A DNA stretch of 59,651 bases. It comes from Chitinophagales bacterium (GTDB lineage Bacteria > Bacteroidota > Bacteroidia > Chitinophagales > UBA2359). Where the stretch lies: positions 1 to 59,651 of the forward strand of contig JAEUUX010000074.1 of NCBI GenBank assembly GCA_016787295.1. Reading direction: 5' to 3'. This document shows positions 17,431-55,161 of this stretch, piece by piece. Both the position numbers and the translations under genes were made by a program. Each line of letters begins with the position of its first letter. Positions within the stretch are counted from its first letter, which is position 1. Below the pieces are notes generated by a model, which worked only from the letters and a program-made list of their open reading frames with translations, made no database searches and was not told the DNA's origin.

Positions 17431-18777
17431 ATGAAAAACCACTCCCCTATCGTAGTCGGACTTGATATTGGTACCACCAAAATTTGTACAGTTATTGCCC
17501 GTCGCAATGAATTTGGCAAAGTAGAAGTGTTGGGCGTAGGACAAGCTCCTTCGCTCGGCGTGATGCGTGGTGTCATTTCCAATATAGACAAAACCGTCGA
17601 TGCCATCACCCGTTCCTTTGCCGAAGCCCAACGTGTGGCGAATATTGATATGGATATTAGAGACGTATATGTCGGCATTGCAGGACAACATATTAAATGT
17701 TATCAACACCGTGCTTATATGATGCGCCAATACAGCGAGGACGAAATTCGTCAGCGTGATATTGAGCGTTTGGTATCAGACATGGAAAAAGTTGCCATTC
17801 CCCCAGGTGACCAGATTTTGCATATCATTCCACAAGAATTTATTGTTGATGATGAGCAAGGCATCAAAGACCCTATTGGTATGTCAGGAACACGCTTAGA
17901 GGCAGATTTCCGAATCATTACAGGGCAAACAGCCGCTATCCGCAACATCTATCGTTGTGTGGAGCGAGCCAACTTGCACGTAGCAGGACTTTATCTTGAG
18001 CCTATCGCCTCGTCAGGAGCAGTATTGACCGACGAAGAATTAGAAGCGGGCGTAGCTATAGTAGACATTGGCGGCGGTACAACCGATATTGCCATTTTCC
18101 ACGAAGGACTAATACGCCATACTGCTGTCATTCCGCTCGGTGGCAACATCATCACCGAAGACGTTAAAGAAGGTTGTATGGTGATGCGCGACCAAGCCGA
18201 AAAATTGAAAGTTAAATTTGGAGCAGCACAATTCCACCATAACGAAGTGAATGCTATCGTCTCTATTCCGGGACTAAGAGGCAGAGAACCACGCGAAATT
18301 TCTTTCCGCAATCTCGCCAATATCATTCAAGCCCGTATGGAGGAAATTTTGGAATATGTTTATTACCAAATCAAAGACTCTGGTTACGAAACAAAATTGA
18401 TTGGCGGTATCGTCATCACTGGCGGTGGCGCACGACTCAAACACCTCAAAAACCTCACCGAACAAGTGACAGGTTTGGATACGCGCATAGGTCTGCCTAC
18501 CGAACACCTTATCAACGGACGCGGACAACTCAATGATCCCTTGTATGCCACAAGTATCGGTTTGGCTATCAAAGCACTACAGCATTCCCAAACACAACAA
18601 CAACAAACATTGGCACCGCCAATTCCTGCCGCTGCCGAAGCCTCCGATGCTGATATGCACCAGTCATCTCTCAATAGCACAGAGCAAAACGCTACTCCTG
18701 CCAAAAAGAACTGGTTCGACAACGTGATGCGCAAAGGGCGCGAATGGTTGGAAGGTGATATTCGGGATTTTGAGTAA
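17431..18777 (+). CDS. ftsA: Cell division protein FtsA
   Basis: A 448-residue actin-like ATPase that tethers FtsZ to the membrane. Phosphate 1 is VVGLDIGTTKICTVIARR, phosphate 2 is AIVDIGGGTTDIAIFHEG, and the adenosine motif is IVITGGGARLKHL. The 1C-domain region RGVISNIDKTVDAI is present. The C-terminal end, NWFDNVMRKGREWLEGDIRD, is amphipathic and fits the membrane-targeting helix. It is a normal full-length FtsA. ftsZ normally follows directly, but here it is about 2.5 kb away, beyond an ATPase/DUF4435 pair. Confidence 0.96.
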   Translation: MKNHSPIVVGLDIGTTKICTVIARRNEFGKVEVLGVGQAPSLGVMRGVISNIDKTVDAITRSFAEAQRVANIDMDIRDVYVGIAGQHIKCYQHRAYMMRQYSEDEIRQRDIERLVSDMEKVAIPPGDQILHIIPQEFIVDDEQGIKDPIGMSGTRLEADFRIITGQTAAIRNIYRCVERANLHVAGLYLEPIASSGAVLTDEELEAGVAIVDIGGGTTDIAIFHEGLIRHTAVIPLGGNIITEDVKEGCMVMRDQAEKLKVKFGAAQFHHNEVNAIVSIPGLRGREPREISFRNLANIIQARMEEILEYVYYQIKDSGYETKLIGGIVITGGGARLKHLKNLTEQVTGLDTRIGLPTEHLINGRGQLNDPLYATSIGLAIKALQHSQTQQQQTLAPPIPAAAEASDADMHQSSLNSTEQNATPAKKNWFDNVMRKGREWLEGDIRDFE

Positions 18778-18802: not shown

Positions 18803-18839
18803 AAGATAGGGTGTTTCAACCTTTTAAACACCCTATCTT
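18803..18839. terminator. Strong hairpin after ftsA
   Basis: A perfect 14-bp stem (18803-18816 with 18826-18839) with a 9-base loop lies 25 bases after the ftsA stop. There is no long T run, but position and stem strength suggest a transcript end, separating ftsA from the inserted gene pair. Confidence 0.65.
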
Positions 18840-18880: not shown

Positions 18881-20221
18881 ATGACCATAAACAAACCATT
18901 GCTCATTCGTTCTTTTGCCATTAAAGGACTTTTTGGAACAACAGATGTGCAACTTTCTTTCCAAGATGATACCACCATATTGATTGGTGAAAATGGACTT
19001 GGAAAAACTCAAATATTAAACATTTTTTATTATACATTAGCACAAAGATTTGATAAATTAGCACAGTATTCTTTCGATTCTATTGCCTTAGAATTGGGAG
19101 ATGAAAAAGTAGAATTTAATAAAGTTTTGGTGGATATTATGAAACAGTATTCTCCATCGGTTAGAAGAGTGTTGAATACAATTGGCGTTAGTAACTTTAT
19201 AGCTTTACTAAAAGGCGATCCGGGAAGTTCTGTCTTTCGTAGTATTTCAAAAGAGTTTTCAATTCCAGGGGAGGAACTATTCTATATTAGGCGTGAAGTT
19301 GGTACTATAAGAGAACCTGAAAGCTTAATATTTAATAATGTTTCAAAGGGAAAAGAAGTACTGAATGATTTCCTACAAAACCACCAAATTCTGTACTTTC
19401 CAACTTATAGGCGCGTAGAAGAAGACCTGCACAATTTGGGTTATAAAGAAGAAAATTTTCAGGCAAAAAGTAATGATGATAGGCTGATACATTTTGGTAT
19501 GCAAGATGTGGATAAACAATTCAAAGCCTTAACCCAAAAGATTGAAAAACTGTCTACAGATGGTTTAGCCAAAATTTCGGGTGAAATTTTAAGCCAATTA
19601 GTCAAAGGTATTCCTGATATCGATACCGATTTTTTGAACAATATTAAACAAAAAGATATTGATATTGTATTGGCGCGTGTAGGTAATCAAATTAGCACAG
19701 AAGATAAAATACGCATAAAAAACATAGTAGCTACCAAAGCTATACAGCCTAAAGACTACCCAATGTTGTTTTTTCTGCAAAAACTAATAGCTATTTATGA
19801 TGAACAGCGCGAACTTGACAGAACTATCAAAGTTTTTCGCGATATTTGCAACAAATATCTTGTCAATAAGGAATTGATTTATGACGAAAGCCACATCGAC
19901 ATTTATATACAAGTCAAAGATAGTAACGAAAAAGTACCTTTGCGCAACCTTTCGTCAGGCGAAAAACAAATTATTTCTATTTTCTCCAAAATATACCTTT
20001 CGCCCGCGCACCATAGATTCATTGTCTTGTTTGACGAACCTGAATTATCTTTGTCTATTTTTTGGCAGAGAGAATTATTGCCTGATATTGTTAGATCGGG
20101 TAAGTGCGCCTTTTTGTTAGCTGTTACGCATTCACCTTTTATTTTCGAAAACGAATTAGACCAATATGCAGTGAGTTTAGGCGCTTATCTCACCCCTTCA
20201 AAAACCCTACAGCCTGTATGA
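18881..20221 (+). CDS. AAA_15/ABC-type ATPase, AriA-like component of a PARIS-like defence pair
   Basis: A 446-residue SMC/OLD-like ATPase. Walker A is LIGENGLGKTQ (residues 35-44), the ABC signature is NLSSGEKQII (356-365), Walker B is IVLFDEPELS (381-390) and the H-loop is THSPF (416-420). The short middle helical region, rather than a long coiled coil, is as in AAA_15 proteins. It overlaps the following DUF4435 gene by four bases (ATGA). An AAA_15 ATPase plus a DUF4435 protein is the composition of the PARIS anti-phage system (AriA/AriB), in which the ATPase senses phage anti-restriction proteins and releases the nuclease. The subtype is unproven. Confidence 0.8.
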   Translation: MTINKPLLIRSFAIKGLFGTTDVQLSFQDDTTILIGENGLGKTQILNIFYYTLAQRFDKLAQYSFDSIALELGDEKVEFNKVLVDIMKQYSPSVRRVLNTIGVSNFIALLKGDPGSSVFRSISKEFSIPGEELFYIRREVGTIREPESLIFNNVSKGKEVLNDFLQNHQILYFPTYRRVEEDLHNLGYKEENFQAKSNDDRLIHFGMQDVDKQFKALTQKIEKLSTDGLAKISGEILSQLVKGIPDIDTDFLNNIKQKDIDIVLARVGNQISTEDKIRIKNIVATKAIQPKDYPMLFFLQKLIAIYDEQRELDRTIKVFRDICNKYLVNKELIYDESHIDIYIQVKDSNEKVPLRNLSSGEKQIISIFSKIYLSPAHHRFIVLFDEPELSLSIFWQRELLPDIVRSGKCAFLLAVTHSPFIFENELDQYAVSLGAYLTPSKTLQPV

Positions 20222-21126
20222 AAAACATGGTAGAAGAGTTGCTCTCGGCGAGCAAGTCGTCAAGTAATGTTGCCTATATGACTTTCATTCGGCATCTAAA
20301 TAAAGACAAATGGGGTTTGTTTTGTTTTTTGGAAGGTAAAGACAGTCCCTACTATGCTATCCGAGTGAAAAACCATTTTCAGAGCAACTATTATCCCATA
20401 CATTGTGGCGGAAAAGAAAAAGTACTAAAGGTTTATGAACTCATTCGGAAACATCCAATAGAATATGGCAAGGCAAAAACTGCTTTTTTTGTCGATAGCG
20501 ATTTTGACGAACCTTTGAATAATACGGACATTTACGAAACGCCTTGTTATTCTATAGAAAATCTATACACAAGTAGCGCCGTTTTGGGCGAAATCCTGAA
20601 AAGCGAATGCCGACTATATGAAATAGACGAAGATTTTGAACACTGCATAAGTCTTTACGAGTCTTTGCAAAACGATTTTCATAGTCACACAACCCTATTT
20701 AACGCTTGGTACGCTTGTGTAATTCGGTTTAAAAACCGCACTCAAGAAGACATAGACGTTCCTTTAGACGATAAGTTTCCTAAAAAATTTGTCCAAGTTT
20801 CTTTGTCAGGCATTACTGCAAGCTATGATTTAACTGCTATATGTGTCGCATATCCTCAAGCCCCTTTCATAGATGACCAAACCATTGCTCAAAAAGTGAG
20901 TGAAATGAATATACAAAACAAAGGAAAGATATTTAGAGGCAAATTTGAGTTCTATTTTATGCTCACGATTTTAGACGAACTAATAAAGGACTCGCAAACA
21001 ACTCGAAGCATCGTTAAAAAAAATATCAAATACCATATTAATCACTCTAATGCCATTTCACAATTGGCACAATACGCCGAAACACCGCCAGATTTGATAA
21101 GTTACATTCAAAATCGAGTGCAATAA
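20218..21126 (+). CDS. DUF4435 (TOPRIM-like) protein, AriB-like component of a PARIS-like pair
   Basis: A 302-residue protein. FCFLEGKDSPYYAIRV contains the conserved TOPRIM-type glutamate (E39), and AFFVDSDFDEP (D93/D95) gives the DxD acidic motif, followed by YSIENLY as in DUF4435 proteins. These are the residues expected of the metal-dependent nuclease of PARIS. The frame is open further upstream inside the ATPase gene, but ATG 20218, overlapping the ATPase stop, is the natural start and gives translational coupling. The pair is flanked by ftsA and ftsZ. Confidence 0.78.
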   Translation: MKNMVEELLSASKSSSNVAYMTFIRHLNKDKWGLFCFLEGKDSPYYAIRVKNHFQSNYYPIHCGGKEKVLKVYELIRKHPIEYGKAKTAFFVDSDFDEPLNNTDIYETPCYSIENLYTSSAVLGEILKSECRLYEIDEDFEHCISLYESLQNDFHSHTTLFNAWYACVIRFKNRTQEDIDVPLDDKFPKKFVQVSLSGITASYDLTAICVAYPQAPFIDDQTIAQKVSEMNIQNKGKIFRGKFEFYFMLTILDELIKDSQTTRSIVKKNIKYHINHSNAISQLAQYAETPPDLISYIQNRVQ

Positions 21127-21184
21127 TCCAAAACAACACAAAAATCAGCTATAAATTATCTCCTCCATTCCGATACATTTCCTT

Positions 21185-21211
21185 TTTGGGGCGATAAATA
21201 TTCGCGCCGAA
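21185..21211. promoter_or_regulatory. Shared TTTGGGGCGATAAA motif and palindrome upstream of ftsZ
   Basis: TTTGGGGCGATAAA (21185-21198) differs by one base from the inverted pair upstream of ftsA. It is followed at once by the palindrome ATTCG-CGC-CGAAT (21199-21211). It may be a common cis element of the two division genes. Confidence 0.45.
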
Positions 21212-21265
21212 TCATTTTTGTATTTATCCAAACATTAAATTACACCCATCAAAAAACGTGATTTT

Positions 21266-22732
21266 ATGCAAGCCAATCCAAATAAAGACCATAAAGATAC
21301 CATTATAAAAGTGATAGGCGTAGGCGGCGGAGGCTGCAATGCCGTTAACCACATGTTTAAATTGGGTATTGTAGGCGTAAACTATGTCGTCTGCAACACC
21401 GACTCCCAAGCCCTCGACCAAAGTCCTATCCCCATCAGAGTACAGTTGGGACCTGGACTCACCGAAGGGCGCGGAGCAGGTTCGCAACCCGAAGTCGGTA
21501 AAAACGCTACCATCGAATCGATGGACGAAATCAAACGCAACCTCGCTGGTGGCACCCGAATGGTGTTCATCACCGCAGGTATGGGCGGTGGTACAGGCAC
21601 AGGCGGAGCGCCAATGGTTGCCAAAGCTGCTCGCGAATTGGGTATTCTCACGGTAGGCATCGTTTCGTCGCCTTTTATCTTCGAAGGGCGCAAGCGCGTC
21701 ATTCAAGCTCAAGAAGGCATCGAAGAAATGAAAAAAAATGTGGATACCCTCATCGTCATTTCTAACGATAAATTGCGCGAAATTCATGGCAATTTGAGCC
21801 TTTCCAACGCTTTTGCTCGCGCCGACGATATTATTGCCACAGCCGCCAAAGGTATCGCCGAAATTATTACCGTACCAGGATACGTCAATGTCGATTTCGA
21901 AGACGTAAATACCGTTATGAAAAATAGCGGCGTTGCTATCATGGGCATTGGTATTGCCGACGGCGAAGAACGCTCTCTCAAAGCTGTCAAAATGGCATTG
22001 TCCTCTCCTTTGCTCAACGACAACGATATTCATGGTGCGCGACACATCTTGTTGAACATCACTTCAGGCACCAAAGAAGTGCTAATGGACGAAGTGGGTG
22101 ACATCATCAGCTATATCCAAGAATCGGCAGGCTATACCTCCGAAGTCATCTGGGGTAATTGCGTCGATGAAAGTCTTGGCGAACGCATCAGTGTCACGGT
22201 CATCGCCACAGGTTTTGAAATCAAAAATGACGGCTTCCAAAAACAAGAACGCTTTTTTGAGGAAGCACAAAAACGAAACCCACAAGACAACATCCGCAAA
22301 CAAAATCCTGTTGTTAATAATACCCAACAAAATACCAACCAAACACCGCCACCACCACCAAACAAACAAACACGTGTGGTGTTTAACTTGGACGACGATA
22401 CCGATACCACCCGTAACCACACCCCTCAAAATCAAGACCGTCGACAAGAAACCAACAATTTCCGAAGCAACAATTACGAAGACTCCCAAAACCAACAAAT
22501 CTTGGAAGAACGTCGTCGTCGTTTGCGCGGCTTAAGCATGAAATTGAGTGGTAGCGACCTCAACGAATTAGAGAAAGAACCCGCCTACAAACGCCGAAAC
22601 ATGAATTTGGAAGATGTGCCACATTCTTCCGAAACCAATGTGTCGAAGTATTCCTTGTATGAAGAAGACTCCAAAAAGTCGGCAGAAATCAAACAAAAAC
22701 GCAATCCATTTTTGCATGATAATGTAGATTAA
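21266..22732 (+). CDS. ftsZ: Cell division GTPase FtsZ
   Basis: A 488-residue tubulin-like GTPase that forms the Z-ring. VIGVGGGGCNAVNHM is the nucleotide-binding start, VVCNTDSQAL follows, and the tubulin signature is FITAGMGGGTGTGGAP. The T7 synergy-loop region is NAFARADDIIATAAKGIAEI. The C-terminal linker (about 330-450) is long and rich in Asn, Gln and Pro, as in other Bacteroidota. The tail RNPFLHDNVD is the likely partner-binding peptide. Confidence 0.97.
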   Translation: MQANPNKDHKDTIIKVIGVGGGGCNAVNHMFKLGIVGVNYVVCNTDSQALDQSPIPIRVQLGPGLTEGRGAGSQPEVGKNATIESMDEIKRNLAGGTRMVFITAGMGGGTGTGGAPMVAKAARELGILTVGIVSSPFIFEGRKRVIQAQEGIEEMKKNVDTLIVISNDKLREIHGNLSLSNAFARADDIIATAAKGIAEIITVPGYVNVDFEDVNTVMKNSGVAIMGIGIADGEERSLKAVKMALSSPLLNDNDIHGARHILLNITSGTKEVLMDEVGDIISYIQESAGYTSEVIWGNCVDESLGERISVTVIATGFEIKNDGFQKQERFFEEAQKRNPQDNIRKQNPVVNNTQQNTNQTPPPPPNKQTRVVFNLDDDTDTTRNHTPQNQDRRQETNNFRSNNYEDSQNQQILEERRRRLRGLSMKLSGSDLNELEKEPAYKRRNMNLEDVPHSSETNVSKYSLYEEDSKKSAEIKQKRNPFLHDNVD

Positions 22733-45700: not shown

Positions 45701-46026
45701 GTGCAATGCTCGACACGGTGCAGGTCAATGTTATTCCGTTTGTGCCAACGCAATGTTATTCTTTGCCGAATGCTTTTAGTCCCAACAATGATGGGGTGAA
45801 CGACGAATTTCATGCTATTGTCTATACGCCCAACAGTTTTGTGAGTCTACAAATCTACAACCGTTTTGGGGAAGAAATTTTTAGCTCCAAAGACAGCAAC
45901 GCGGCAGGGTGGGACGGCACCTACAAAGGCCTGCCGCAACCGATGGGGGTTTATGTTTTCTATTTGACGCTGATGTGCGATGGTGCGCCAATGGTGCTTA
46001 AGGGTAATGTTACGTTGGTGAGGTAG
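42751..46026 (+). CDS. Large T9SS type B (gliding-motility-associated C-terminal domain) surface protein
   Basis: A 1091-residue secreted protein starting MKKNIYGYCLLLLGSYLISV (signal peptide). The N-terminal third has a cysteine-containing beta domain common in such proteins (AVDLRYEWISGNQYEVFLYF, LIDPDGDSLVYSLVPPLDSP), followed by PKD/Ig-like modules, Thr/Ala-rich. The C-terminus YSLPNAFSPNNDGVNDEFHA to GVYVFYLTLMCDGAPMVLKG is the T9SS type B sorting domain. It is probably an adhesin-like or cell-surface structural protein. Its last 17 bases overlap the convergent cmr6 gene. Confidence 0.88.
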   Translation: MKKNIYGYCLLLLGSYLISVLCSISLHANHAMAVDLRYEWISGNQYEVFLYFYFDCNSTIQDTPPNNPPITISSSTCGQLFTANLQEDTNISGDNVSQLCPTAFSSCNGGSYPGVEQYIYRHIIALPENCPDWTISYQLPTGQTRSADITNLFTPDFYRLYTEATLNNTLAGNNSPTIGSIAVPYFCANEHTFIQSLIDPDGDSLVYSLVPPLDSPNNAIPYIGGLNSQNPLNGSLSIDPENGDISFSPLGAQRPVIAVLIEEYRNGVKIGSIRRDMQWLILNCNNEALSVDNPNSSNILNVCIGEPINFMLQANDIDGNNVVVTSNINTFPNTAQLIVNTAPPASGYDKQITFQWTPTIADMGDYALQINMTDNHCPVPATWTGNFLLHVYGAPDAGADLSFCNSSNTPLTVMPTNGSQFAWSPAPFSQNANGSVVQLIPPTNIGDNIAYIVTNECGLSDTLFIERHNTFTANITPTSPAVCANNSGVVLYAEPSGSNYSYYWQPEASVNVPTDAIIYATPQQPTVYTVQITDNTTACVATATTTVTFSDFTGTVMATAAADTVCVGETVQLNSTAVYLPQLTCGISNSACNGIDTLVTLGTHIDSSFNFTPYNGFWENGRLQFIYTAAELQAMGNINDGLIKEMGFYITRKFSTAPLSQFYIKMGCTQIDNITTFIDGLTEVYAATNLVTTAQMWNMYTLDTPFAWDGSSNIVVEICHHNTNANQFDEVAVSTLTYSSTIKAQSSIGNNPCSLVNNALVTNLRPDMRLSVCLPNANTSNTQITWLPAEGLSNPNIANPIATPTTTTTYTAIYEDGGCSGSGNVTVVVRQPAFEQLHIVADSLLCANELPLSLPLSIAETLPNSAQLLWQSLDTLDNANSLSPTLSCTQAQTVAVSVQLNDACNTIVYDSLQIQLAEPPSLTLTPNEATIDEGENITLTATGSFSTLQWQSNAPIDNPTALSIIVSPQESTSYIAIAQDANACAMLDTVQVNVIPFVPTQCYSLPNAFSPNNDGVNDEFHAIVYTPNSFVSLQIYNRFGEEIFSSKDSNAAGWDGTYKGLPQPMGVYVFYLTLMCDGAPMVLKGNVTLVR

Positions 46027-47257
46027 GCTGCATGTAGCCGTAGCCTACGGCGGTTTTTGCGCCTATGCCTTGTTGGGTTAGGGCGGTGGTTAGGTGGTGT
46101 TTTATGAGGTTCAGCATAGACATTTTATTGTCATCTTTCTTAAAATTAGCTAACTCATTTGACTCATCCAATCCTAAACCAACATAAAAAGTAAAGCAAG
46201 TGCCTGCATCAATAGTCAAGAAAGTAATGGGATTGGGAGATAAATAATCAGCAGGCGGGGTAGGCAGTCCTGTATCTTTGTCAATTTTATCTGCATAATA
46301 ATCTCCATAATGTGGAGTCATTACGTCAATTTTTACTTTAAGATTTTCGGAAGGAAAGGCATCGAAAAAAATAACTTTGCCTTGGCGGTCACCATTGTCT
46401 TGAGCTTTTGTTTTTTCTGCCTCTATTTTATAGTATGATTTAAAATCAACTTTTTCTCCATTAGCCACTTCAACTTTACCTTCTCCGCTACAGCCAAAAA
46501 TATCGCAAAAAGTTTTGTCTTTCAAGGCTTCAACTTCGTTATTGCCAAAAACTGTTGAAATGATATAGCTGCGCACAACACCCTTAACGCTACTTGCCGG
46601 TATGTAAGGAATGCCATAAATATGGTGTAATAGCATACCTGTTTCGTAAACAGAAGCTGTGCCTAAACCAATTGCCAAACGCGAATTAGGGTGTAGTTTT
46701 GTTTTAATACTATCAGAACTTTGACAGACCCTTACTACGTACTCTGCCTGACGTGCGTTTAGGTTTTTGATTTGCTGTTTATTGAAAGAGAAATTGTTGA
46801 TGGCTTCGTTTACATTGCGGCTTTCTTTGCGATCTTCTTTATCCTGCTGTTTTATCTTTTTATCCTGCTTCGAATACTTTTTTAATCCCCACTCTGGGGT
46901 AACCAGAAGTTGAGGAGGTTTGTTAATGAACAAAGCAAAATTGTTATTATCAGCATCTATAATAGGGGTATATTCAAACCCATTTGCCATAGTCCGTTCA
47001 TTTTTTTTAATTGGATTATTCTGTTTTGCAGAAACTTTGTTTATAAATCTAGCAACTTCTAATCCAAAACCATTAGGAGCTGTTTGTACGATGATTTCAA
47101 ATTTATCACCTACTTCTGCACGCTCTGGTATATTTCCACGTTCACGGAGCCATTGGAATTTAAAAAATATACGCTTTCCTGGATGTTTATCACTTTCTAA
47201 GAAAGTCCTACCGTCTTTATTAACAACAGTAGCTATTATTGTTTGTTGATTAATCAT
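46010..47257 (-). CDS. cmr6: Type III-B CRISPR RAMP protein Cmr6
   Basis: A 415-residue RAMP-fold subunit of the Cmr effector. The diagnostic segment SRLAIGLGTASVYETGMLLH then IYGIPYIPASSVKGVVRSYI contains the glycine-rich RAMP loop; ITFLTIDAGTCFTFYVGL and ALTQQGIGAKTAVGYGYM are typical of Cmr6. About 170 N-terminal residues precede the RAMP domain, beginning with an OB-like stretch. The frame is open to TTG 47266; ATG 47257 is preferred. It is last in the operon and overlaps both cmr5 and the convergent T9SS gene. Confidence 0.92.
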   Translation of the reverse strand: MINQQTIIATVVNKDGRTFLESDKHPGKRIFFKFQWLRERGNIPERAEVGDKFEIIVQTAPNGFGLEVARFINKVSAKQNNPIKKNERTMANGFEYTPIIDADNNNFALFINKPPQLLVTPEWGLKKYSKQDKKIKQQDKEDRKESRNVNEAINNFSFNKQQIKNLNARQAEYVVRVCQSSDSIKTKLHPNSRLAIGLGTASVYETGMLLHHIYGIPYIPASSVKGVVRSYIISTVFGNNEVEALKDKTFCDIFGCSGEGKVEVANGEKVDFKSYYKIEAEKTKAQDNGDRQGKVIFFDAFPSENLKVKIDVMTPHYGDYYADKIDKDTGLPTPPADYLSPNPITFLTIDAGTCFTFYVGLGLDESNELANFKKDDNKMSMLNLIKHHLTTALTQQGIGAKTAVGYGYMQPTSPT

Positions 47258-47627
47258 TTGAGACAAAGCGTTTTAACCATGTGAATAAGGCAAGAGTTTC
47301 GGCAGTAATGGTGCGTAATTGTTCGTCACTAACGTCTTCGACTAAAACAGCCATTAAAGATTTTTTTTGCGACAACAAACCTTTAATATTTTCATTAGGG
47401 TCGTGTACTTCAAAGTAAGTTTGAATATCGTCATACAATTGTTCCCATTCATTTTTAGGTTTATTAGGTTTTCCTCTTTTTGAATAGGCAAACGCTACTG
47501 CATTCACAAGTCCGTTTGTTTTTATGTACATTGGGAATTTTTTTACATACTGTCCGTATTCTTTACTTTTTCCTTGTGCGAAACCCCACGCTGCTTTAGC
47601 GCGTATTTGTCCTATATTAGTTGGCAT
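47250..47627 (-). CDS. cmr5: Type III-B CRISPR small subunit Cmr5
   Basis: A 125-residue helical protein. IRAKAAWGFAQGKSKEYGQY, KKFPMYIKTNGLVNAVAFA and LALFTWLKRFV match Cmr5, which lines the inner filament of the Cmr complex. It overlaps cmr4 by 11 bases and cmr6 by 8, in the usual gene order. Confidence 0.92.
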   Translation of the reverse strand: MPTNIGQIRAKAAWGFAQGKSKEYGQYVKKFPMYIKTNGLVNAVAFAYSKRGKPNKPKNEWEQLYDDIQTYFEVHDPNENIKGLLSQKKSLMAVLVEDVSDEQLRTITAETLALFTWLKRFVSND

Positions 47628-48648
47628 TTTCTTGTGTTTGGGTTTTAGGTGATTTAAGATTAGTTTTTACGATACCTTTTCCGATGGTGGCATTGCCGCC
47701 TAACTGAAAGTGTTGAGGCAAATGTTTTTCATAGAATTGTTTAACTTCTTCAAACGTTTTAGGTTTTTCTTTTTTAGCATTAGCAGTATCTTCTTTGGCA
47801 AACTCGTTTTCAAACAAGACCAAAGAATACAGAATAGTTTCTTGGGGCAAATATTCTTCGTTGAACAATTGTCCTTGTGCCACGGTTCCTGTTGTATTGT
47901 TTATTTTGGTGCGGGTAATTACTTCGGTGCAAAGTTCGGTTAGTTGCGCAAAATCGTTGTCGGGCAACACAACCACATTGTTTTTGATAAGGTTGTACAT
48001 ATAGTCGTTTTTTGGGAAAAACTGTTTAGCAATATGTTCGGCAAAATTAGTAGTTGCTTCTTCTACCTTAATACCACCGTAAATAAACTCCTCAATGCCA
48101 ACTTTGTCATCTATTAAGGAAAGATTGCTACTTGCTGTATCGGCTTTTATTTCAAAGGTCACTTTTTGCTCAATTTGTGCCATTTCGTTTTGCTCAATTT
48201 GTGCCATTTCGTTTTGCTCAATTTGTGCCATTTCGTTACAAAATTTAGTAACCACGCGCGGGCAAGTTATCCAAACACATACCCCTTTTTGAGATTTGAC
48301 AGGAAACAGCAACAACCGACAATCGGTTACTGTAAGGCAACCACGAAATTGTTGGTCTTCTTGATTGAGAAAACGCGGATTTCTTTTGACAACTTCATGT
48401 GCATTTGTATCATCGTAGCCAAAAATACGGTGAACCATAATTTCGTGATTTCGTGCGGTTTTATCAGCTTTTTTGCTTTTTTCAAAAGCTTCGCGCAAGG
48501 CACCTTTTAACGATGAACCTTCCACTTTCGGGAAGCCCGTGTGTCGTTCGCGTTGTATGGGTAGGTCTATCAAACCTAAATCGGAGCCGCTACCTGCGTG
48601 CAAAGGTGTTTCGCAGAGTAGAAAAAGAACTTCGGAAGATTGTTGCAT
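47617..48648 (-). CDS. cmr4: Type III-B CRISPR RAMP ribonuclease Cmr4 with in-frame tandem repeat
   Basis: A 343-residue backbone subunit that cuts target RNA. ETPLHAGSGSDLGLIDLPIQ then RERHTGFPKVEGSSLKGALR is the Cmr4 signature. By alignment to P. furiosus Cmr4, the catalytic Asp corresponds to D28 in LIDLPIQRERH. The C-terminal glycine-rich loop is FQLGGNATIGKGIVKT. Three perfect 8-residue repeats (NEMAQIEQ type) near residues 138-161 come from a 24-bp DNA repeat and lie in a region that varies among Cmr4 proteins. It starts 4 bases after the DUF1016 gene. Confidence 0.93.
   Translation of the reverse strand: MQQSSEVLFLLCETPLHAGSGSDLGLIDLPIQRERHTGFPKVEGSSLKGALREAFEKSKKADKTARNHEIMVHRIFGYDDTNAHEVVKRNPRFLNQEDQQFRGCLTVTDCRLLLFPVKSQKGVCVWITCPRVVTKFCNEMAQIEQNEMAQIEQNEMAQIEQKVTFEIKADTASSNLSLIDDKVGIEEFIYGGIKVEEATTNFAEHIAKQFFPKNDYMYNLIKNNVVVLPDNDFAQLTELCTEVITRTKINNTTGTVAQGQLFNEEYLPQETILYSLVLFENEFAKEDTANAKKEKPKTFEEVKQFYEKHLPQHFQLGGNATIGKGIVKTNLKSPKTQTQENAN
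48166..48237 (-). repeat. Three perfect 24-bp tandem repeats inside cmr4
   Basis: Units at 48166-48189, 48190-48213 and 48214-48237 are identical and keep the frame, each adding eight residues. Copy-number changes would lengthen or shorten Cmr4 without breaking it. Confidence 0.92.
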
Positions 48649-48652
48649 ATTG

Positions 48653-49675
48653 CTATTGCTTTATGGTGTTAATGAGTAAAAAATGTTTTTTGAGTAGTTC
48701 GGCACTTGGTAGCAAGTTTTTGAGATTATCGGGTAGGGTTGTGCCTATGGTATAGGTGGCTACACCTATGGGGGTTTGGGTATCGCGCAGGGCATATTCT
48801 ACGATAGTTCGGTCTTTCGATTTGCAAATGATAATGCCAATGCTTGGATTTTCGTCGGTTTCGCGTACTGTGTCGTTTAATACGCTTAAGTAAAACTGCA
48901 TTTTGCCTGCCATTTCGGGCGTAAATTCGCCAATTTTTAGGTCAATTGCCACCAAACAGCGCAGTTTGCGGTGAAACAATAGTAGGTCAATCCAATACTC
49001 TTTGTCGGCTATTTGTAGGCGATATTGGCTGCCGATAAACGAAAAATAGCCGCCCATTTCTAACAAAAATTGTCGAATATTGTTGATAATTGCCAACTCT
49101 AATTCGCGTTCCGAGTGCTGTTCGGCAAGTTCTAAAAAGCCGAATTGATAGTCGTCTTTTATAGCTAAAATGGCTTGGTGACGGTAGTTTTCGGCAATTG
49201 TTTGGTCAAAATTGCTTTGATTGAGCAGGTATTTTTCGTAAGATTGGTTGGCGATTTGGTGTATTAACACATTCTTTGTCCAGCCAAATTTTTTGGTCAT
49301 TATGATATAAAATTCGCGTTGCAAATCTGTTTTGCATTTTTCCATGATGACAATGTGGTGCGACCAACCTATTTCTGCCACCAATGGTGGCAGAAATTCG
49401 TTTTGGCTATACAATTCATAAAATTGCTTCATCCGCCAAATATTGCGTGCCGAAAAACCCGACATAGTGGGGAATTCTGTTTGTAGGTCTTTTGACATTT
49501 GCTCAACCACCGATTTTCCCCAGCCTAGTGCTGTTTGTTGCTCTACAATTTGCTGCCCAATATGCCAATATAAACTCAATAGCTGCTCGTTTACGGCTTT
49601 TAGGGCTTGGTATTGTGTGGTACGTATGTGGTTTTTTAGTTGGGAGATAAAGGTTTGGTAGGGATTATTGTTCAT
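48653..49675 (-). CDS. DUF1016/YhcG-family PD-(D/E)XK nuclease embedded in the cmr operon
   Basis: A 340-residue protein. The N-terminal DUF1016_N domain is seen in QLLSLYWHIGQQIVEQQ, WGKSVVEQMSKDLQTEFP and GFSARNIWRMKQFYELY. The C-terminal nuclease domain has EYWIDLLLFHRKLRCLVAID with DLK (D and DxK active-site pattern) and GEFTPEMAGKMQFYLSVLND. YhcG proteins are often near restriction or other defence genes. Here the gene lies between the CARF-nuclease and cmr4, 4 bases before cmr4, on the same strand and presumably the same transcript. Its role in the CRISPR system is unknown. Confidence 0.9.
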   Translation of the reverse strand: MNNNPYQTFISQLKNHIRTTQYQALKAVNEQLLSLYWHIGQQIVEQQTALGWGKSVVEQMSKDLQTEFPTMSGFSARNIWRMKQFYELYSQNEFLPPLVAEIGWSHHIVIMEKCKTDLQREFYIIMTKKFGWTKNVLIHQIANQSYEKYLLNQSNFDQTIAENYRHQAILAIKDDYQFGFLELAEQHSERELELAIINNIRQFLLEMGGYFSFIGSQYRLQIADKEYWIDLLLFHRKLRCLVAIDLKIGEFTPEMAGKMQFYLSVLNDTVRETDENPSIGIIICKSKDRTIVEYALRDTQTPIGVATYTIGTTLPDNLKNLLPSAELLKKHFLLINTIKQ

Positions 49676-49711
49676 TTTTTTGGGGGATAGATGAAACTAA
49701 TGCCATAAAGT

Positions 49712-51118
49712 TCAATTAAGGTCTACTTTTGTAATATCCTCTATTGGGTTTTGTAAAAAATCTTTATAGGCATCCTTAGTTTCGGGAATGTTTAACGTAA
49801 TTAACCAAAATGAAATAGGAAAACTGCCTTCTACAATTTCATCACGAACGCGAACCATACGGTTTTTAACATTCGTCATTATACTATCTGGTATATCTTT
49901 CAACAAGGTATAAACAATATAACGAAACTCAGTAGGTTTGTGTTGACATTTACTGATGTGGGAGCAAGTTTCGGTAAATTGTTTCCTTACATCTTTTTTA
50001 AATTTGTCGCCGTTACTAAACTTAGACAATGGCTTAACTTCACACGCGATGTAATCAGTTAATTCCATTTCCTTTATTGCTATGTTTGGTTCTTTATTAA
50101 GAATAGCATCATAAATTAAGGAATTATTGCGCTGTTCAAGTAAAATATCTATTTCATTACCTTTTTCGCCAATAGAATTATCATCAATCACAACGCTTCT
50201 TGTTGCTATATAAGTTTTTCTCTCTTCCGAATACAAATTAAAAAACTCTACTAATTTGTACTCAACCAAAATTCCAAGCGCTGTTTTTCCTTCAGGAATA
50301 TAGTCATTTGCATATGTAAAAAACAACTCCCCTAAAGCTGTTCGCTTACGTTTTGTATCGTCTACCAATTTTAACTTATATGCTTCATCCAACGCATTAG
50401 TGTCTATGTTCTTTAACACTTCTTCATCTAATAACGGATAAATCCTTTCAATTTTTTCTGCATCAAAACCAATCGGCAAATTACCCACCGTTACCAAAAC
50501 GGCATCTTTTAGTTCTGTTTCATTATAAATGTATTGAAGTCGCATTTCGCGCAATTGTCCATACAAGGTTAAAATAGGAATAATAGCTTTATAGCCGCCT
50601 GTTATGTTTAGAATGTCTCCTTCGCCCTTTTCCTTTTCTTCTTTACTAATTTCCGTTTTATTTTTCAAAATGTCTATCAATGCCATAAAACCGCTATCAT
50701 AGTCCGTTTGGTTTGTGATGCGCAAGTTTTCTACAATGTGGTCTTTCGTAGAATCAAAACGAACAGTGGAGAACTTAGTGTACTTGTCTTTATTGCCCTC
50801 AAACCATTGCTGAATTGCCCATGCGCACACCGCTGACGCAAGCGTATCTGTACACAACAAATACACTTCGTATTTATCCCCTTCTTTTAAGGATTCGTGA
50901 ATTTTATGCAGGCTGCTAATTTCGGCGGATAACTGGGTGTTGTTAAGGTGTTTTTTTATATTACCCTTCCAAGTTGATTTATTGGTACAAAAAGTTGCTT
51001 TTCGATTATTCTCCCAATTTTCATGGAATGATTTATCATCAAATCCACTAAATTTAAGAGTTTTTGTTATAGAAGTACCTACTGTTGTAAAGATTTTGTA
51101 TTTCATGTTAATTTGCAT
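49712..51118 (-). CDS. CARF-domain ring-nuclease/effector with C-terminal PD-(D/E)XK nuclease
   Basis: A 468-residue CRISPR-associated protein. The N-terminal CARF domain of the APE2256/TIGR02619 type shows FTTVGTSITKTLKFSG, QLSAEISSLHKI, VYLLCTDTLASAVCAWAI and ILNITGGYKAIIPILTLYGQ. The C-terminal half has a PD-(D/E)XK pattern: GNEIDILLE (D324) then YIACEVKPL (E360, K362), with E286 as a possible extra acid. It probably cuts nucleic acid when the CARF domain binds cyclic oligoadenylate made by Cmr2. An alternative ATG at 51106 fits the family start. It overlaps cmr3 by 11 bases. Confidence 0.82.
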   Translation of the reverse strand: MQINMKYKIFTTVGTSITKTLKFSGFDDKSFHENWENNRKATFCTNKSTWKGNIKKHLNNTQLSAEISSLHKIHESLKEGDKYEVYLLCTDTLASAVCAWAIQQWFEGNKDKYTKFSTVRFDSTKDHIVENLRITNQTDYDSGFMALIDILKNKTEISKEEKEKGEGDILNITGGYKAIIPILTLYGQLREMRLQYIYNETELKDAVLVTVGNLPIGFDAEKIERIYPLLDEEVLKNIDTNALDEAYKLKLVDDTKRKRTALGELFFTYANDYIPEGKTALGILVEYKLVEFFNLYSEERKTYIATRSVVIDDNSIGEKGNEIDILLEQRNNSLIYDAILNKEPNIAIKEMELTDYIACEVKPLSKFSNGDKFKKDVRKQFTETCSHISKCQHKPTEFRYIVYTLLKDIPDSIMTNVKNRMVRVRDEIVEGSFPISFWLITLNIPETKDAYKDFLQNPIEDITKVDLN

Positions 51119-52301
51119 TAGTTGTTAAAAATTTAGTATCCACTTTGCCTATAAATGCACGTCCAAAGCCTTCGTGGGCGCGGTGGTCAGAAATACATTT
51201 ATTGTGGATGAGTTCTACAATTTCGTTGAGTTGTTGAGCGGCGTTTTCAGTATTTCTTAGCTTAAAATAATACACGCTTCCGGCAGGTACGGCACGTTGC
51301 ATGGACTTGGGTTTGTTTTCAGCCATATCAAAACCGCCTACGTAAACTGCTTTCCCTACTGCGGCTGCCACCAATTCGGCTGCTGCTGCAAATAGATTGG
51401 GTATGGCAAAATCGGTATCGCCATTCCAAATGGCGGGGGAGGCTAAGTATAGTTTAAAAAACTGCTCATCTTCGGAAAATGTAGGTTTACCAATAGTTAA
51501 GTCGGTATTGTCTGTTATAAAACGTACTAATTTACTATCTGCACCTAATTTTACAAAACCGCTATTAGGCAATTCTAAATTATCGCATTGGTTGATAGAA
51601 AAAGAGATACTAAAACAAAGTTGTGCAGTTCTAATCCAATCTGTATTTTCCGTGTCGTTTTTATCAAGATACTCTGTACGCAGCATAGGCACTCTATATA
51701 GCTTACCTAATGAAGTAGTAGAAGTTGTTTTATCCCGACCAATGCCAATTTTAGGCTCACTTATTTTGTGCTTATTTAGATTTACAGCAGTTTTTTCTAA
51801 ATTAAAAATAGTTTGGCTATCATTCAAATAGTCTGTTAAAGAAAAATTGTTTAGAAAATAATCTTCAATATCTTGTATTTTTTGGGCTTCTGCCGCCTTT
51901 AATTCGTAGTCTTTGAAAAAAGAAGAGTCGAGTCCTTGTTTTTGTCTAAATTCCAAACCTTGGGTTTCCTCTTCGTTTTTAAAAGCAATAATGTCTAAGG
52001 GCATTGAAAACAGTGGGTCAAAATTACCTGCTTCTACTACACTTCCCACATCTGCTTGATTACCGTAGCGCAAATCTATACTATGTATAACAACACTTTC
52101 GGTCATTTCCTTAGCAATTTTTCCGTCTGTAATGCCATTATGAGCAGCAATTAGCCCGCGCAATGCGCCATAAAATACAGACGGCATTGGCGGAAACAAC
52201 ATATTGGCAGTTGTATCTTCGCCCATAGAAAAAGGGCGACCGTCGCGAAAAAATAGCGGGTCTTTAGGATAAAGGTATATGGTGTGTACGTTTGTGGACA
52301 T
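51108..52301 (-). CDS. cmr3: Type III-B CRISPR RAMP protein Cmr3
   Basis: A 397-residue subunit that holds the 5' handle of crRNA next to Cmr2. IYLYPKDPLFFRDGRPFSMG and MLFPPMPSVFYGALRGLIAA are the Cmr3 signature. The C-terminal AVPAGSVYYFKLRN and HEGFGRAFIG give the glycine-rich loop. It follows cmr2 with five bases between. Confidence 0.94.
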   Translation of the reverse strand: MSTNVHTIYLYPKDPLFFRDGRPFSMGEDTTANMLFPPMPSVFYGALRGLIAAHNGITDGKIAKEMTESVVIHSIDLRYGNQADVGSVVEAGNFDPLFSMPLDIIAFKNEEETQGLEFRQKQGLDSSFFKDYELKAAEAQKIQDIEDYFLNNFSLTDYLNDSQTIFNLEKTAVNLNKHKISEPKIGIGRDKTTSTTSLGKLYRVPMLRTEYLDKNDTENTDWIRTAQLCFSISFSINQCDNLELPNSGFVKLGADSKLVRFITDNTDLTIGKPTFSEDEQFFKLYLASPAIWNGDTDFAIPNLFAAAAELVAAAVGKAVYVGGFDMAENKPKSMQRAVPAGSVYYFKLRNTENAAQQLNEIVELIHNKCISDHRAHEGFGRAFIGKVDTKFLTTNAN

Positions 52302-52306
52302 GGGTT

Positions 52307-54028
52307 TTATTCGTTGATTTTGCGGTTAGAGAAATCGGCAATGGATAGTAAATCTATAACAGGTTGTATATTTTTGTCATTGACAAGCCAAATAGTATCT
52401 AACAACTCAGTGATAGTTTTGCTTAGTCGTTCAGAATTAACTTTCTTGGCATCTTTATCCGTCAATTTACAAGCACGATTAATAAGGCGTTGCAATTCAC
52501 TAACAAGCATTTTATAGGAAGTACTACCTATATTTACTGCGTCTTCAAAAATATCGCCTTCGTTTTCTAAAATGCGTATCCATTGGCTGCTAAAATTGTC
52601 GCGCAGTTGTTCATAAATAATTTGCAGGGCGGTTGTTGTCATATTGTCATCGCTGTAGTCTTTGGCAAAGTCAATTTTCCACTTCAATTTTGTGGTAGTT
52701 ACTTGTCCCGAATGGCGCACGGCAGCAATGGCAAAAGCGTCCTTTTTATCAACATCTTTAGCTTGTTTTTCCATTTTTCGCGCCCATTGGAGGGTTTCGC
52801 TGAGGGGTGTTTTGTAGTGTGCAATGGCAATGCCTGCCGAAAAGTTCATGCCTACTATTTCTGCAAATTTTTGTCGCAGTTTTTGTACTGTTTCGTACAA
52901 GGTTGGTAGTGTAAGCATTCCCAGAAAGTCGTCACCGCCGGCATAAATAACTTTTCCGCGGTTTTCATTTTCTACGTAATTTCTTGCCCATTCCGCAAAT
53001 TCGCCCAATTTTTCGGAAAGTTCATTTTGCATTTTTTCATCTGCCTCTCCTATCTTTTTGCCCATGTCATCGGCATCAAATAGCAAAACGGCGTAGTATT
53101 TGTGATAACTGTACTTAAGGAGTTTGATGCAAGTGTCTATTTGTTCCCATGCATCTTTTGCATCAGCTAATTTACCGTCTTTACCTTGTTGTGTGAAATA
53201 GGCTGCGTTATAGTTTTCTTTAAACCAAAATTGCCCTATGGTTTGGGGTGTTTCGCCTATAGCATCAGCTAAGGTTTTTATTTTGTTGTCAATTCTTTCG
53301 TTTAATTTACTAAACGTACTTAACATGGCAATATCTGCTGTAGAGGGAAACTCGTCAACAAAAATGTTACCTACACGTCCATATAATCGTTTGAGCAAAA
53401 CAATAGCCGATAAACCTTCTCCTGCTTCCAATGCCCAATAATGCAGATAGGTATCATTAAACGACAGAATAATGCATTCTTTACACAAATAGGCGGCTTC
53501 TTTTTTACCTTTATTTTTGCGATAAAATAAGGCATTTTGTGTGCCTGTTACACTACATTTACGTCCCCATTCATTGATTTGTTTGAAAGGGCGAAAGTTT
53601 TTAGCAGCCCCTAATTGTTGTTCTAATTCTTTATAATCTTTTCCATAATTACTTCCATCATAAGGAACAGCCGCCCAATGCACCTCCAAAAAATCACGAA
53701 GTTGTTGTTGACAAGCCTCCCAATTGCTAAAACAACCTAAATATGTTTGAGCAATACGCATAAATTCAGCCTTCACATCAGTTGTTAATTCTTCGGCATA
53801 ATTGCGCATAGCGTCTTTATCGCTTATTGGCATTTGGGCAATAAAACGATTGGGTTTTGAAGGCACGTTAGGTGCAGGATAAATAATGTTTTGCTCACCA
53901 ACTTGGTTAGTAGCAAAATGTATTAGGTCGGATAGCAGTCGGCTTCCCGCATACAAATCTTGCGTCTTGCGTGCTTGGGCAATAAAAGACTGAACGGGTC
54001 CGATGGTGAAAAGGAAAAGGTAGGTCAT
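52307..54028 (-). CDS. cmr2: Cas10-type subunit Cmr2 with GGDD cyclase motif and no HD domain
   Basis: A 573-residue Cas10. It opens directly with FTIGPVQSFIAQARKTQDLY, so the N-terminal HD nuclease domain of larger Cas10 proteins is missing. The zinc finger is C158 with C182/C185 (CSVTG...YLCKEC). The palm domain has AVLLFDADDMGKKIG and YAGGDDFLGML (GGDD at 364-367), so cyclic oligoadenylate synthesis is expected. The C-terminal helical D4 region follows. It overlaps cmr1 by four bases. The DNase activity attributed to HD should be absent. Confidence 0.95.
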   Translation of the reverse strand: MTYLFLFTIGPVQSFIAQARKTQDLYAGSRLLSDLIHFATNQVGEQNIIYPAPNVPSKPNRFIAQMPISDKDAMRNYAEELTTDVKAEFMRIAQTYLGCFSNWEACQQQLRDFLEVHWAAVPYDGSNYGKDYKELEQQLGAAKNFRPFKQINEWGRKCSVTGTQNALFYRKNKGKKEAAYLCKECIILSFNDTYLHYWALEAGEGLSAIVLLKRLYGRVGNIFVDEFPSTADIAMLSTFSKLNERIDNKIKTLADAIGETPQTIGQFWFKENYNAAYFTQQGKDGKLADAKDAWEQIDTCIKLLKYSYHKYYAVLLFDADDMGKKIGEADEKMQNELSEKLGEFAEWARNYVENENRGKVIYAGGDDFLGMLTLPTLYETVQKLRQKFAEIVGMNFSAGIAIAHYKTPLSETLQWARKMEKQAKDVDKKDAFAIAAVRHSGQVTTTKLKWKIDFAKDYSDDNMTTTALQIIYEQLRDNFSSQWIRILENEGDIFEDAVNIGSTSYKMLVSELQRLINRACKLTDKDAKKVNSERLSKTITELLDTIWLVNDKNIQPVIDLLSIADFSNRKINE

Positions 54029-55161
54029 AAAATAATAGAAGTTAGGTTTGGAAATTTTTGGTCTAAAAATTCTTTCACTATTTCAGGGTTTGCTAATTTT
54101 TGGTTATGTCCCGTTTTATCCATAATTTCATAACCTTGTGGGATTAAATCACCACTAAGCCAAACAACTATCGGAAAAACTTTTTCTTCATTGACTTTTA
54201 TCAATTTAAAAATCAGCGGGGATGAACGCCTTTCAAGTTTATCTATTTCTTTTTTACCATTAACTACTGTCCATTTGCCACCTTGCATAGTTGTTTTTAG
54301 GTTTTGGTGCAAAATTGGAAAACCAAAATTAGGAGTGTCTGTTATCCGACCTTTAACTGTCGTTCTAAACTCAAAAAATGGTTTGGCAATAGTTTCTAAA
54401 GAGATTGCCCAATTAGTTGTTGTACTTTGTGCAAAATAGATTTTGGCTTTTTTTAAGTGTGAATAATCATTTCTACCATGGGATGTGATTGAAAAATTAT
54501 CTTCTACATATTCTTGCAGCCCTTCAACAGAAGTAATACCTTTATTATGAAAAATCTTTTTCAATTCTTGTTCTTTTTTCCTTAATTCCTCATCAGTGTA
54601 TTCATTGAAATTTAAGTCCTTTATCCAAAATGAACCACTGCCCCTTCTACTTCGTGTTCCTAATGCACCTAAAAACACCAAAGCTTTTAAAGCATTGATG
54701 ATGTGGTCAAAATACTCCATTTTATGAAAAATTATCTTGAACTCAAATACTACATTAGGTTTGATACTCTTTCTAATATTTTCTCCATCAAGCCATGTCG
54801 AATAGTATAGGTAAGCCAATCCCTTAAGTTTTGCATTGCGAGAGTCTATGTATGGCTTGCCTTTTTTTGATACTTTTTCTTCACAACCTATTTGCTTCCA
54901 TGTGAGGTCATAAATATCACTATCTTTGAGTGGCGTAATCATCTGAATACTAAAACTACTTCGCATTGCTGTATTATTTCCCAAGCCGCCAAAAATTTTT
55001 GTTTCCAACTCTTTCATGTTTGACTCATGCCCATGCAAAGCCCTCCACCAAAACCTTAGCGCCCCCTTAATACTCGGCGCACGAAGCTCGGGCGTGATGC
55101 CATCGGCACCATTCAAAAACATAGGCGTTATCGTTTCGCAAGTAAAAGTTATACTGTTCAT
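54025..55161 (-). CDS. cmr1: Type III-B CRISPR RAMP protein Cmr1
   Basis: A 378-residue RAMP protein at the 3' end of the crRNA in the Cmr filament. TCETITPMFLNGADGITPEL followed by RAPSIKGALRFWWRALHG is the Cmr1 signature. GALGTRSRRGSGSFWI is the glycine-rich loop. It is the first gene of the cmr operon, behind a good promoter. Confidence 0.94.
   Translation of the reverse strand: MNSITFTCETITPMFLNGADGITPELRAPSIKGALRFWWRALHGHESNMKELETKIFGGLGNNTAMRSSFSIQMITPLKDSDIYDLTWKQIGCEEKVSKKGKPYIDSRNAKLKGLAYLYYSTWLDGENIRKSIKPNVVFEFKIIFHKMEYFDHIINALKALVFLGALGTRSRRGSGSFWIKDLNFNEYTDEELRKKEQELKKIFHNKGITSVEGLQEYVEDNFSITSHGRNDYSHLKKAKIYFAQSTTTNWAISLETIAKPFFEFRTTVKGRITDTPNFGFPILHQNLKTTMQGGKWTVVNGKKEIDKLERRSSPLIFKLIKVNEEKVFPIVVWLSGDLIPQGYEIMDKTGHNQKLANPEIVKEFLDQKFPNLTSIIL

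Follow-up and report, generated by a model that had tools for sequence, protein, structure and literature searches.

The gene pair between ftsA and ftsZ

The window, meaning the whole stretch of 59,651 nucleotides that was analyzed, is an entire contig (C33) of a 5.42-Mb draft Chitinophagales genome in 296 contigs. We found in it two genes between the cell division genes ftsA and ftsZ, all four on the plus strand (Table 1). The first, ORF A, encodes an ABC ATPase (Pfam AAA_15 52.9 bits, AAA_21 48.5 bits) and the second, ORF B, a DUF4435 protein (161.7 bits); they overlap by the four bases ATGA. The sequence-only reading had described this arrangement, and the reading-frame coordinates and Pfam searches agree with it. 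For ORF B the mechanical list of open reading frames gives a longer frame with a GTG start at 20104; the ATG at 20218 fits the N-termini of the homologs.

Table 1. Coordinates of the genes, motifs and hairpins at the ftsA-ftsZ locus, as positions in the window.
Feature	Position	Strand	Remarks
ftsA	17431..18777	+	Left flank, host core gene; Pfam FtsA 9.1e-43, SHS2_FTSA
Hairpin between ftsA and ariA	18803..18839	+	14 perfect pairs, 9-nt loop; fold -21.3 kcal/mol, z -6.0
ORF A, ariA-like AAA_15/ABC ATPase	18881..20221	+	446 aa; putative sensor and effector inhibitor, by homology
Walker A GENGLGKT	18986..19009	+	A residues 36-43; N38, G39, G41 and K42 invariant (58 homologs)
ABC signature LSSGEKQ	19949..19969	+	A residues 357-363; intact
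Walker B / D-loop DEPELSLS	20033..20056	+	A residues 385-392; intact
H-loop THSPFIF	20126..20146	+	A residues 416-422; intact
ORF B, ariB-like DUF4435/Toprim nuclease	20218..21126	+	302 aa; putative effector, by homology
Toprim acidic residue E39	20332..20334	+	Invariant (66 homologs)
Toprim DxD (D93, D95)	20494..20502	+	D95 invariant, D93 nearly so (66 homologs)
RGK motif of the DUF4435 family	20935..20943	+	B residues 240-242; G241 and K242 invariant, R240 nearly so (66 homologs)
Hairpin between ariB and ftsZ	21185..21211	+	T-rich stretch 3'; fold of 21127-21265, -19.5 kcal/mol, z -2.7
ftsZ	21266..22732	+	Right flank, host core gene; Pfam Tubulin/FtsZ 2.5e-44

The active-site motifs had been called intact from the letters, and alignments confirm this: those for ATP hydrolysis and Toprim catalysis are nearly all invariant among 58 homologs of A and 66 of B, and B retains E39, D42, D93, D95, E114, N115 and the RGK motif. 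E39 is probably the equivalent of E26 of Escherichia coli AriB, for which the E26A mutant is inactive (PMC12409363).

Elsewhere in the window, on the minus strand at 46010-55161, is a type III-B (Cmr) CRISPR-Cas cluster with Cas10/Cmr2, Cmr3 and three RAMP proteins. It also carries a CARF-RelE/Csm6-type protein (49712-51118), and a DUF1016/YhcG PDDEXK nuclease gene (48653-49675) is embedded between its cas genes. An Rfam scan of the window gave no match.

Assignment to PARIS

PARIS is defined functionally by its anti-restriction trigger, sequestration and tRNA cutting (PMC9122126, PMC11455837, PMC12409363). The published detection rule (PMC9122126) requires both genes, with either AAA_15 at 32 bits or more or AAA_21 at 27 or more, plus DUF4435 at 27 or more; the scores of the pair lie above all three thresholds. 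With the PADLOC profiles, AriA was the top family for ORF A (1.6e-30), the best competitor being PtuA (1.7e-14), while ORF B matched AriB (1.4e-39, over the DUF4435 region) with no competing family. Searching PDB by sequence, ORF A reached E. coli AriA at 1.4e-10 with the single sequence and 2e-28 with a profile. E. coli AriB was not reached in PDB from the B sequence, nor from a profile of 66 AriB relatives (E up to 1), so membership was judged from the profile libraries and from fold.

The AF2 models (pLDDT 89 for A, 95 for B) were compared with known structures. The A model has the fold of AriA (8ux9_B; Z 22.9, rmsd 4.5 over 356) and matches AriA of the AriA-Ocr complex (8v45_C) at Z 22.4; the next-best family is PtuA, at Z 16.9. 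The B model has the fold of AriB (8ux9_A; Z 13.5, rmsd 5.3 over 256, 10% identity), with a second AriB chain at Z 12.9 and the next family, OLD, at Z 7.0; the Toprim acids E39, D42, D93 and D95 are conserved in it. From profiles, published rule and comparison of the predicted folds, the assignment of the pair to PARIS is well supported. The gene composition proposed from the letters is thereby upheld, and comparison with the AriA and AriB profiles did not place the pair in a different two-gene family. AriB is divergent enough in sequence that the trigger and RNA target of B are not inferable, and on that divergence they may differ from those of E. coli.

The closest described system is PARIS of E. 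coli B185 (Rousset et al., 2022; structures 8ux9, 8v45-8v49), which likewise has two adjacent genes, ABC ATPase first and DUF4435/Toprim second, with similar folds and catalytic residues and similar sizes (464/306 aa in its chains). It differs in that the AriB described here is only about 10% identical and is missed by sequence profile, and in its site, a P4 satellite or prophage hotspot rather than a chromosomal gap between core genes. Several other systems combine related parts. PtuAB (Septu) and the PtuA effectors of retrons have a related ABC ATPase (Z up to 16.9), but the PtuAB partner is an HNH nuclease; Septu was rejected since the partner here is the DUF4435/Toprim protein, with no HNH PtuB, and the next genes are ftsA and ftsZ. 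OLD nucleases also join an ABC ATPase to a Toprim domain, their C-terminal region being the part that the B model resembles, but OLD is one polypeptide that cuts DNA; this candidate was dropped because ATPase and Toprim are here on two overlapping genes, with a DUF4435 effector. A retron with an ATPase-Toprim effector was likewise dismissed, since no reverse transcriptase gene adjoins the pair and the Rfam scan gave no match for an ncRNA.

Two further ATPase-DUF4435 pairs, very divergent from that of the window, were listed in the same genome: 287+355 aa on contig C103 (locus L041, 4563-6468) and 383+297 aa on contig C180 (locus L042, 9099-11076). PADLOC names both AriA/AriB, with AriA at 3e-62 and 2e-27, respectively.

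Insertion into the division locus

In all 29 relatives examined, 11 of them of the same family, ftsA and ftsZ are adjacent (gap 9-494 bp) and the pair is absent from the gap. The arrangement is therefore a lineage-specific insertion of a low-GC cassette and not ancestral, and the claim that it splits a nearly universal neighbor pair holds; the ancestral alternative, an arrangement common to all relatives, was not seen. ORF A has 34.1% GC and ORF B 36.4%, against 41.7 +/- 3.1% for the other window genes and 46.5% for ftsA/ftsZ; together with the absence from relatives, this fits horizontal gain in this lineage. A search for a target-site duplication at the junctions gave as its top shared word one of 9 bp, both copies of which are coding (ariA start and ftsZ start) and which is not evidence of a duplication.

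Two same-family genomes have ftsA-ftsZ gaps of 450 bp (G004:C554, L056) and 494 bp (G015:C164, L057), which are possible scars of former cargo.

More widely in Bacteroidia, among the matches listed, at least 125 genomes have ftsA and ftsZ on one contig, 124 of them co-directionally, where the matched segments are a median of 191 bp apart; these distances are overestimates, as the matched part of FtsA often ends short of its C-terminus. Only four of the genomes among the matches listed exceed 500 bp. One of these (G527) has a long N-terminal extension of FtsZ, as probably does a second, G556, which shares its family code and has a frame of similar length. A third, G622, has one opposite-strand gene in the gap. 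In G514, the one genome outside the 124, ftsZ is inverted, with genes between it and ftsA. Interruption of the ftsA-ftsZ pair is rare (about 2%) but not unique, with different cargo each time. The gap of G531 (L223, 1572-6243), the fourth of the long ones, has 5 kb of opposite-strand genes, one with BRO-N, and is possibly unknown defence or mobile cargo.

Location of related pairs

With the AriB alignment as query, 80 genome loci were recovered, in 77 of which ariA is directly upstream of ariB; the two genes overlap or almost touch in most loci where both frames are whole. Searching the genome contigs with AriB alone gave no confirmed relative. AriA-AriB pairs also occur on predicted viral contigs; a tblastn search of the phage collection found no AriB relative.

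In the tree the AriB of the window groups with three sequences, from one Cytophagales and two Saprospiraceae assemblies (support 98). These three lie upstream of a glutamine/glutamate-type tRNA synthetase gene (glnS), between ribBA and an M1 peptidase gene, and near an M1-peptidase-like gene. Among farther relatives, that of Methylovulum has ubiE on one side and an SCP2 (ubiJ-like) gene on the other, that of a Cytophagales assembly immediately precedes uvrA, and three Flavobacterium genomes have theirs in the gap between parE and parC. The ftsA-ftsZ site is rare, yet it is one case of a wider habit: relatives of the pair occur as solitary cassettes next to housekeeping genes of other kinds. 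At the locus of the closest AriB relative (L061, 4639-6029) the ariA frame appears to be split into two ORFs, by frameshift or sequencing error.

The parE-parC gap was compared among Flavobacterium relatives with 90-99% identity in ParE and ParC. One has an empty gap (51 bp), two have there a gene for a nuclease of DUF1016/YhcG type (1147 bp, confirmed with Pfam, and 1151 bp, judged from similarity), and the three above have PARIS (2.4-2.9 kb). Since its cargo is swapped in this way, the gap serves solitary cassettes as a small exchange site. Several of the Flavobacterium gaps (L083, L086, L095, L216-L219) also contain short repeated remnants, such as CAGTCAGTGACTG.

The small anti-phage hotspots of phages P2 and P4 (PMC9122126) are comparable, with one or two small defence cassettes swapped between conserved anchors; there the anchors belong to phages, whereas here they are essential chromosomal genes (ftsA/ftsZ, and parE/parC in Flavobacterium) and the gap is free of phage genes. 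We also considered a preference of AriA-AriB pairs for gaps between co-directional core genes and rejected it: flanking genes are co-directional in 34 of 59 cases (57.6%), against a local background of 46.2% (p = 0.14).

Transcription and relation to division

Hairpins lie on both sides of the pair. The one after ftsA is the longest inverted repeat of the window and occurs once in the genome; no T-run follows it, so it is not a textbook terminator, and it is probably the 3' end or an attenuator of the ftsA transcript. The one before ftsZ was missed by a strict terminator scan and is likewise not of textbook type; it is possibly the terminator of an ariAB transcript. Such hairpins were tested as a conserved part of the cassette and dropped: that after ftsA is not conserved among the other PARIS cassettes. 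A crude pattern search found no Bacteroidota-type -7 promoter element just upstream of ariA or ftsZ, and a sigma-70 scan was at the shuffled level. The two hairpins would tend to separate the transcripts of ftsA, ariAB and ftsZ.

The sequence-only reading had further suggested that the location could link a toxic effector, through its expression, to the division locus. No support was found for this: a hairpin stands on each side of the pair, cassettes of the same type adjoin housekeeping genes of unrelated function elsewhere, and deletion of either E. coli gene is reported not to be toxic (Rousset et al., 2022; PMC9122126). Because cassettes of this solitary kind come and go in small gaps between housekeeping genes, the location at division genes is most probably incidental.

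Interpretation

We read the locus, with a probability of about 0.82, as a complete two-gene PARIS-type abortive-infection cassette, acquired horizontally by a Bacteroidia lineage and cleanly inserted between ftsA and ftsZ. The strongest competitor, though an unlikely one, is a separate AAA_15-Toprim two-gene defence family that is kin to PARIS but is set off by another signal and has a different nucleic acid as its substrate, for instance DNA, the substrate of OLD. The failure of the AriB profile to find E. coli AriB by sequence would suit such a family, as would the spread of its AriB branch over Bacteroidota, Cyanobacteriota and others, and the breadth of DUF4435, along with the two further, very divergent ATPase-DUF4435 pairs of this same genome. 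Yet for both proteins the PARIS pair is the best match among the solved structures compared, well ahead of PtuA and OLD, the gene order, sizes (446/302 vs 464/306 aa) and catalytic layout agree with E. coli PARIS, and DUF4435 falls within the published PARIS definition.

A functional meaning of the location is much less probable still. The pair is co-directional with ftsA and ftsZ and could be co-expressed with them, or could detect phage attack on FtsZ and so guard the divisome; a parallel for the latter is CapRel-Ebc, an unrelated defence protein that FtsZ activates when in complex with phage Gp0.4 (PMC13423816). Against both, the placement is seen in one genome only, the nearest relatives adjoin glnS, ribBA and M1 peptidase genes, the hairpins separate the pair from either neighbor, and the excess of flanking co-direction is not significant. 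In its specific form, a guard within an ftsA-ftsZ operon whose ATPase would sense phage interference with FtsZ and release the nuclease, the proposal is slightly less credible again, and none of the present results points to it; if true, it would make the pair a variant of PARIS with a host target, not an anti-restriction protein, under surveillance. Least probable of all is an assembly artefact or inactive remnant. This is a draft genome with no close relative to confirm the junctions, but the pair lies 19 kb from one contig end and 38 kb from the other, both frames are open and every conserved motif is intact; a protein search of the genome found ftsA and ftsZ at one place each, so a misjoin at both ends is unlikely.

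If the cassette works as in E. coli (PMC11455837, PMC12409363), where AriA forms a ring from which AriB is released to cut tRNA, then A would form a ring-like assembly that holds B inactive until a phage anti-restriction protein or other trigger binds A. The freed B would dimerize and cut host tRNA, translation would stop, and the infected cell would make no phage. The same genome has several genes for type I restriction specificity, and type I restriction is a first-line defence of the kind that PARIS presumably watches for inhibition. Ordinary flanking core genes could move the cassette between strains by ordinary recombination.

What is new here is a PARIS cassette at the uncommon ftsA-ftsZ site; the system itself is ordinary for PARIS. 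It is a Bacteroidota member of PARIS whose effector is divergent, and it could help in asking whether the family varies in its tRNA targets and triggers; its position shows that the division locus can tolerate an abortive-infection cassette. Taken with the Flavobacterium parE-parC gap, it also shows a turnover of solitary defence cassettes in the small gaps that separate essential genes. Sites of this kind lie outside the classic defence islands, and enlarged gaps between near-universal gene pairs could be scanned for unknown systems.
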